DNA of 64,000 bases from Gemmatimonadota bacterium (lineage in GTDB: Bacteria > Gemmatimonadota > Gemmatimonadetes > Gemmatimonadales > Gemmatimonadaceae), in NCBI GenBank assembly GCA_014192065.1, contig BJHH01000002.1, positions 310,001 through 374,000 of the forward strand, in the 5' to 3' direction. Below, piece by piece: positions 51,120-51,464 of this stretch (position 1 is its first letter; each line of letters starts with the position of its first letter). A program made the position numbers and the translations under genes. The notes beneath the pieces are model-generated. The model made no database searches. It had not been told where the DNA came from and was given only the letters and a program-made list of their open reading frames with translations.

Positions 51120-51131
51120 GCGCGAACGCAA

Positions 51132-51170
51132 GAAACGGGGCAGCGCGTGTGAATAGCGTTGCCCCGTTTC
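51132..51170 (+). terminator. Hairpin terminator after the M28 gene
   Basis: Perfect 11-bp arms GAAACGGGGCA and TGCCCCGTTTC around a 17-nt loop, 12 bp after the stop. Confidence 0.7.
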
Positions 51171-51247
51171 AAGCTGTGCACCCTGCTCTCTAACGAGTAA
51201 CCGAAGTGTGCGCCGTCGCGAACAATTCGTCAATGGCGACTCACCCG

Positions 51248-51331
51248 TGCTCGGAGCGGGACTCGAACCCGCACTCTCGTTAGAGAACCGGATCCACAGT
51301 CCGGCGCGTCTACCCATTTCACCATCCGAGC
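51248..51331 (-). tRNA. Class II (leucine-like) tRNA with GTG (His) anticodon
   Basis: 84 nt on the minus strand. Acceptor GCTCGGA/TCCGAGC; D-arm GTG...CGC with a tRNA-Leu-style loop (AAATGGGTAGA); anticodon stem CCGGA/TCCGG around loop CTGTGGA, anticodon GTG; a 15-nt variable arm that folds as CTCT-AACG-AGAG; T-arm GCGGG/CCCGC with TTCGAGT; discriminator A73; CCA not encoded. The GTG anticodon would read His codons, but a bacterial tRNA-His has a short variable loop, an extra G at -1 and C73. Here -1 is T and the body is that of tRNA-Leu. Identity is therefore uncertain. Confidence 0.9.
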
Positions 51332-51464
51332 AGGGTTCCCACCGGAACGCCGGTGCAGAACGACGCGCACGCTGTGACGCACGCGCTGCGAGTCAGATGG
51401 CACGATGGATCTGCCCGCAGGTGAACCCGTCACCGAAACAACGCGCACCACATCAAATCCATTC

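Follow-up and report, generated by a model that had tools for sequence, protein, structure and literature searches.

The window analysed here is a 64,000-nucleotide stretch of contig BJHH01000002.1 (positions 310,001 to 374,000) from the Gemmatimonadota assembly GCA_014192065.1. Gemmatimonadota are soil and freshwater bacteria. On the minus strand, from 51331 to 51248, the window carries a complete 84-nt class II tRNA gene of leucine type with the anticodon GUG. An Rfam search of the window returned tRNAs as its sole matches, this one at 57 bits (E 1.2e-9), and ARAGORN labels the gene tRNA-His(gtg). The first-pass annotation, made from the letters alone, had described a complete class II leucine-type body with a His (GUG) anticodon, A73 and no G-1, and the cloverleaf, Rfam and ARAGORN confirm that description. 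It overlooked the second RNA of the cassette to which the tRNA belongs, a dedicated antisense RNA, as well as the leader hairpin directed against the anticodon and the versions of the cassette with the anticodons GCG, GCC and GGC. The features of the locus are collected in Table 1.

Table 1. Features of the cassette in the window (nt numbers within the tRNA are those of the tRNA; all other coordinates are window positions)
Feature	Coordinates	Strand	Basis
Promoter-like element CGGTGACG-N21-ATCGTG, upstream of the leader, non-sigma70 spacing	51401..51435	-	Recurrent spacing
5' leader, two hairpins, MFE -30.5 kcal/mol, z -2.1	51332..51394	-	Conserved in cassettes of 4 genera; covariance model R1 match
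Leader hairpin 1, loop GUCACAG at 51378-51372, complementary to anticodon-loop nt 32-36 (CUGUG)	51366..51384	-	21-cassette pairing
Class II leucine-type tRNA, GUG, A73, U-1, no encoded CCA	51248..51331	-	Cloverleaf, Rfam, identity comparison
Sigma70-type small-RNA promoter, TTGACG-N17-CACACT	51205..51233	-	Scored over 21 cassettes
Predicted antisense small RNA, ~69 nt, terminator hairpin ~51169-51130 at its end	51130..51198	-	Folding z -3.8, duplex energy
Small-RNA segment, 11 nt perfectly antisense to the tRNA variable arm (nt 46-56, window 51286-51276)	51187..51197	-	Shuffle P 0.005
Small-RNA core UGCACAG, complementary to anticodon-loop nt 32-36	51174..51180	-	Cassette comparison

Structure and predicted identity of the tRNA

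The acceptor stem has 7 perfect base pairs (GCUCGGA/UCCGAGC), the discriminator is A73, and the base at -1 is U, which leaves the tRNA without G-1. The D arm is of leucine type, the variable region is 15 nt long (UUCUCUAACGAGAGU), and the anticodon loop CUGUGGA gives GUG. By pairwise identity the nearest relative is tRNA-Leu, with 73% to Leu-CAG compared with 67% to tRNA-His and 62% to the best tRNA-Ser.

In E. coli, the leucine determinants include A73 and A14 but not the anticodon (PMC9976931). The window tRNA has A73, A14, the class II body and the leucine-type D loop of LeuRS substrates; it does not have an A35 anticodon for a leucine codon, and its GUG reads CAC/CAU. Bacterial HisRS requires G-1 and C73. 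With U-1 and A73, the window tRNA shares the GUG anticodon with tRNA-His and lacks the G-1:C73 pair. Some alphaproteobacterial tRNA-His are without G-1; notwithstanding these, the source genome's own tRNA-His has it. That genome (2.45 Mb, 16 contigs, 48 tRNA matches) contains a standard tRNA-His(GUG) with G-1:C73 and five tRNA-Leu isoacceptors (GAG, UAA, UAG, CAG and CAA), so that both the standard tRNA-His and the full leucine set that the first-pass annotation had proposed to look for are present. LeuRS is the best candidate for charging the window tRNA, which would then decode histidine codons. Each of the 16 genomes tested has one full-length LeuRS, and no second copy was found in any of them.

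All of the deviant anticodons read NNC codons, and their targets CAC, CGC, GGC and GCC are frequent, with 15.6, 38.4, 51.5 and 43.3 occurrences per thousand codons, respectively, in the long ORFs of the window. If the leucine assignment is true, genes annotated in these genomes as tRNA-His, tRNA-Arg(GCG), tRNA-Gly or tRNA-Ala would be mislabelled.

Class II, leucine-like GUG tRNAs of a contrasting kind occur on two viral (phage) contigs (L217, 9659-9745; L218, 672-756) and in a Reyranella MAG (L101, 7-90). These carry G-1:C73 and are probably true tRNA-His that evolved on a class II body, and as cassettes the viral contigs were ruled out on this account. Since the phage and Reyranella examples have G-1:C73, a true tRNA-His can evidently arise on a class II body and looks different from the window tRNA. 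Two other viral contigs share a class II tRNA-like GCG gene with an apparently mismatched acceptor stem (L215, 7461-7518; L216, 11319-11376).

Leader, upstream element and downstream small RNA

Across the cassettes the leader is 60-70 nt long and has two hairpins. The hexaloop of hairpin 1 is U-CAC-AG in the GUG cassettes and U-CGC-AG in the GCG cassettes. About 100 nt upstream of the tRNA there is an element with the consensus NGRTGACG-N21-AYCNTC, with an information content of 13.2 bits, compared with 10.1-10.4 bits in shuffles. In about 14 of 20 cassettes its spacing is identical and its distance nearly so. This element is presumably a promoter.

The predicted promoter of the small RNA lies about 50 nt downstream of the tRNA on the same strand and follows the consensus TTGNNN-N17-YANNNT. 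A -35 box starting with TTG and a 17-nt spacer (18 nt in one case) were found in all 21 cassettes, with a mean promoter score of 7.7 versus 3.3 in shuffles. A generic promoter and terminator scan with strict thresholds did not pick up the cassette sites.

The antisense segments are arranged in two ways. In most GCG and GGC cassettes the segment lies 5-10 nt past the -10 box and is antisense to the 5' strand of the anticodon stem together with the anticodon loop. In the GUG cassettes and two GCG cassettes (G029 and G151), the first antisense segment is directed at the variable arm, and a second, shorter segment, 21-25 nt past the -10 box, is directed at the anticodon loop. The anticodon-loop core of the GUG cassettes pairs over just 5-7 nt, and their specificity rests on the variable arm. 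The weakest case is G128 (GCC), where the small RNA matches its tRNA imperfectly.

Complementarity between the RNAs

Folding of whole downstream duplexes is dominated by GC-rich terminators, and we used longest-match tests and the 5' part of the small RNA. When nt 21-66 of the tRNA were compared with the 150 nt that follow it, the longest perfect antisense match was 11-18 nt in 12 of 17 cassettes, compared with 5-10 nt for 51 ordinary tRNAs and about 6.5 nt in shuffles. In computed duplexes, all of the small RNAs tested (10/10) bound their own tRNA more strongly than any of 47 ordinary tRNAs, these being the ones of the window's genome; for the window small RNA the values were -38.2 kcal/mol with its own tRNA and -27.3 kcal/mol with the best of the 47.

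The detailed analysis took in 21 of the 23 intact cassettes, and in these the pairing partners have changed together. The six pairs between leader loop and anticodon loop are 96.8% paired over the 21 cassettes, with the leader loops of G128 and G135 picked by eye outside the standard hairpin position, and two-sided changes occur at positions 33, 35 and 36. The joint structure of leader stem, loop:loop contact and anticodon stem has a covariation score of 0.760, versus 0.232 when shuffled. In the helix between small RNA and tRNA, 9 of 12 pairs show two-sided changes, and the covariation score of 0.498 compares with 0.170 when shuffled and at most 0.146 when slid, a slide of one base being enough to abolish the covariation. 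Such counts are inflated by related sequences, yet the changes span differing stems and genera. The most telling single case, in our view, is that of two tRNAs in which U33 has become C33 (G009 and G002:C218), where A has become G in the leader loop and in the small RNA alike. A regulatory pairing of the leader and the small RNA with the tRNA is strongly supported by these comparisons. The cassette consists of two adjacent RNA genes, one of which is specifically complementary to the other.

Distribution among relatives

A GUG tRNA of the same kind is also present in three genomes of the same genus (G001, G008 and G010), so a base-call error in the anticodon, which the first-pass annotation had considered, is excluded. 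Other genomes of the genus have leucine-bodied tRNAs with GCG (Arg CGC), and in further genera there are such tRNAs with GCG, GCC (Gly GGC) or GGC (Ala GCC). In total we found 23 intact cassettes in 20 genomes. At least one cassette is carried by 10 of the 18 genomes of the genus, and several per genome occur, with three in G002. Two contigs from Gemmatimonadota MAGs have tRNAs identical to those of G001 and G010.

A73 is invariant in the 21 aligned divergent cassettes (21/21), and the acceptor stem is fully paired in all 17 cassettes checked while its sequence varies. The first-pass annotation had offered leucine charging alongside a mistranslating, regulatory or decaying tRNA. The part that stands is leucine identity as the best prediction, given the invariant A73 and a true tRNA-His that keeps G-1:C73. 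Decay is contradicted by the conservation in relatives and the compensatory changes, and a pseudogene is likewise ruled out by conservation. The window tRNA may be mistranslating or regulatory.

A covariance model of the leader and the 5' half of the tRNA found cassettes within one family of the phylum only. A pattern search added one more cassette, with GGC, from another family of the same order (G050:C116), which indicates that the cassette is older or more mobile than one family. This member (L248, ~1480-1700) has a GGC (Ala) class II tRNA, a downstream promoter TTGACG-N17-TATTGT and a 14-nt antisense match that includes one G-U pair. A search for anticodons with A, C or G at position 35 and a pyrimidine at position 36 returned only the known GCC and GGC tRNAs and chance matches, and plasmid and phage collections yielded no cassette, only tRNA-like partial matches.

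The genes adjoining the cassettes differ from locus to locus. There is no partner gene common to the loci, the sampled neighbours being peptidases and other unrelated genes, and no partner synthetase was found among them. In G004, the alignment of the ortholog of the M28 gene stops at the stop codon, and hence the comparison gives no cassette boundary. No mobility machinery was found and one locus shows vertical persistence, so the cassette is at most a candidate selfish element.

Order of loss

At six loci the small RNA is kept and the tRNA is missing or broken (G007:C129, G002:C189, G014:C2, a copy beside the G001 cassette, G136:C4 and G187); in G136:C4 the tRNA is broken by a deletion in the D arm. 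The first five of these loci retain the promoter region of the small RNA as well. In another genus the hemW locus carries the complete cassette in G021 and G186 and, at the corresponding position, the small RNA alone in G187, while this site in G192 and more distant relatives has neither tRNA nor small RNA. Among the deviant tRNAs examined in Gemmatimonadota, none is without a following small-RNA unit, with the qualification that the searches targeted the tRNA and that the pairing in G128 is imperfect. At the loci examined, the candidate antitoxin is tolerated without the candidate toxin, and the reverse was not seen. If the tRNA by itself is harmful, the small RNA should outlast it, as it does at these loci.

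Some of the remnants have features of their own. The orphan small RNA at L056 (G014:C2) has the core ACUUACCAGGUGC, which would imply a lost GGU (Thr) tRNA and a fifth target codon, ACC. In three remnants (L045, L056 and L057) the surviving piece of the tRNA starts near the T arm, with similar breakpoints that may reflect recombination at tRNA 3' ends. Upstream of the GUG cassette of G001 the trailer and small RNA occur a second time without a tRNA (L103), with the terminator region repeated almost identically over about 38 nt. This repeat suggests tandem duplication as one route of cassette multiplication.

A possible RNA-only toxin-antitoxin module

At the level of sequence, the comparisons establish a conserved cassette, a specific complementarity that covaries, and a small RNA that outlasts the tRNA at six loci. 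We propose, with a probability of roughly 0.6, that the cassette is a two-RNA, toxin-antitoxin-like module in which a Leu-charged misreading tRNA is held off by the antisense RNA. The first RNA would be a leucine-type tRNA with an altered anticodon, which LeuRS would charge and which would insert leucine at the codons of another amino acid, in the window at CAC/CAU (His). The second RNA would be made from a sigma70-type promoter of its own, immediately downstream in the same orientation, and would sequester the tRNA with its antisense 5' end, and in the tRNA precursor the loop of the leader hairpin would kiss the anticodon loop as a second lock. The anatomy suggests that the cell must be able to block the tRNA twice, by the leader loop in the precursor and by the small RNA in trans. 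Unlike tRNAs, small antisense RNAs are usually not stable, and the module would combine a stable tRNA toxin with a short antisense antitoxin. A tRNA that turns His, Arg, Gly or Ala into Leu is a plausible toxin. We infer that both RNAs are expressed and have the relative stabilities that such a module calls for, and that the tRNA is leucylated, decodes and is toxic. The fuller version, in which the toxin of an RNA-only module misreads abundant NNC codons and is locked by the leader loop and by an antisense RNA coevolving with the anticodon, seems to us slightly better than an even bet. An addiction-type module is favored because the varied neighbours, the patchy presence, the several copies per genome and the order of loss fit it. 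Against the module reading are C33 in two of the tRNAs, which is unusual for a decoding tRNA, and the imperfect match of the GCC cassette.

The main rival has the same anatomy and is an adaptive switch, in which controlled misincorporation of Leu for His, Arg, Gly or Ala would be useful under stress, with the tRNA under its own regulated promoter and the small RNA setting a threshold. The conserved promoter-like element upstream of the leader, with its non-sigma70 spacing, would suit a switch, as would a cassette in 10 of 18 genomes of the genus and the benefit that Streptomyces has from its dual-identity tRNA-ProX (PMC10365949). However, addiction is the better match for a patchy presence, a shifting target codon, the lack of a partner synthetase and a tRNA that is lost earlier than its small RNA, and we consider the switch unlikely. 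Less likely again is that decoding is irrelevant and the tRNA body serves as a stable scaffold or sponge controlling the small RNA, or as a leucine carrier for another enzyme. C33 in two members would suit this reading, and tRNA-derived spacers are known as small-RNA sponges, such as 3'ETS-leuZ in E. coli. However, A73, the acceptor, the T arm and a canonical anticodon loop have been kept through many compensatory changes, the best partner of the small RNA is its own tRNA, and small RNAs survive without the tRNA, so that their usefulness does not come from it.

Two further explanations are less probable still. An odd or decayed tRNA-His, or a plain spare tRNA, agrees with the label given by annotation tools and is very improbable, since the G-1:C73 found in the genome's own tRNA-His and in unrelated class II tRNA-His is missing, and since the gene is conserved in relatives with compensatory changes and is linked to a leader and a small RNA. 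Two adjacent small RNAs, one complementary to the gene of the other, also recall a CRISPR-regulated pair of the CreTA kind with the downstream RNA as a crRNA-like guide, an explanation to which we give next to no credence: a search aimed at Cas1 found none in 14 carrier genomes, the small RNA has a plain terminator hairpin at its end and no repeat-like handles on inspection, and its pairing is to the anticodon loop of the mature tRNA, with the covariation with the leader loop that an RNA:RNA contact would lead one to expect.

If the module reading is true, the genetic code would be used here as a weapon or a switch, through a tRNA that rewrites sense codons and is checked by base pairing at its anticodon. 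The cassette would then be a toxin-antitoxin of a new kind and would silence a tRNA by a new mechanism, which combines an antisense RNA with a leader directed against the anticodon. It would also be a mistranslation device that is natural and inducible.

Comparison with known systems

We found no description of a tRNA with a dedicated antisense RNA and an anti-anticodon leader in the open-licence PMC literature. The anatomy of the cassette appears to be new, without a described equivalent that we could find, and the function is a candidate one. As in T-box riboswitches, the loop of an RNA leader pairs with an anticodon. T-box leaders are on mRNAs and sense the charging of ordinary tRNA, whereas the cassette leader forms part of the transcript of the tRNA that it matches, over nt 32-37 rather than at the anticodon alone. 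The small antisense RNA with its own promoter adjoining its target is like that of a type I toxin-antitoxin, where the target is an mRNA instead of a tRNA. CreT/CreA, classified as a type VIII toxin-antitoxin, shares with the proposed module that both partners are RNA, that the toxin acts on translation and that the antitoxin gene is adjacent. CreT acts by sequestering rare tRNAs or blocking initiation, and CreA depends on a CRISPR effector (PMC10097628, PMC8501985), whereas in the cassette the toxin candidate is the tRNA itself, the antitoxin candidate is a plain antisense RNA, and no Cas1 was found in the 14 carrier genomes.

Class II tRNAs with non-leucine anticodons are also found in nematodes, where the nev-tRNAs (V-arm tRNA-Gly CCC and tRNA-Ile UAU) are charged with leucine in vitro (PMC4300185). 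Mistranslation by these odd-anticodon tRNAs was not detectable in C. elegans, which argues against a misreading toxin (PMC4300185). The nev-tRNAs differ from the cassette in being eukaryotic, and the abstract on them describes no linked antisense RNA (PMC4300185).

Also close in kind are the tRNA-ProX of Streptomyces and Kitasatospora (tRNA-ProA, -ProN and -ProT), dual-identity tRNAs that have been shown to mistranslate and are beneficial in Streptomyces (PMC10365949). Like the window tRNA, they are bacterial tRNAs in which body and anticodon belong to different amino acids. Their body is that of proline and they are linked to an unusual ProRS (ProRSx), whereas the cassette has a leucine class II body and no partner synthetase. 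No antisense RNA or anti-anticodon leader is described for tRNA-ProX in the sources consulted, in contrast to the cassette, whose small RNA and leader both covary with the anticodon.
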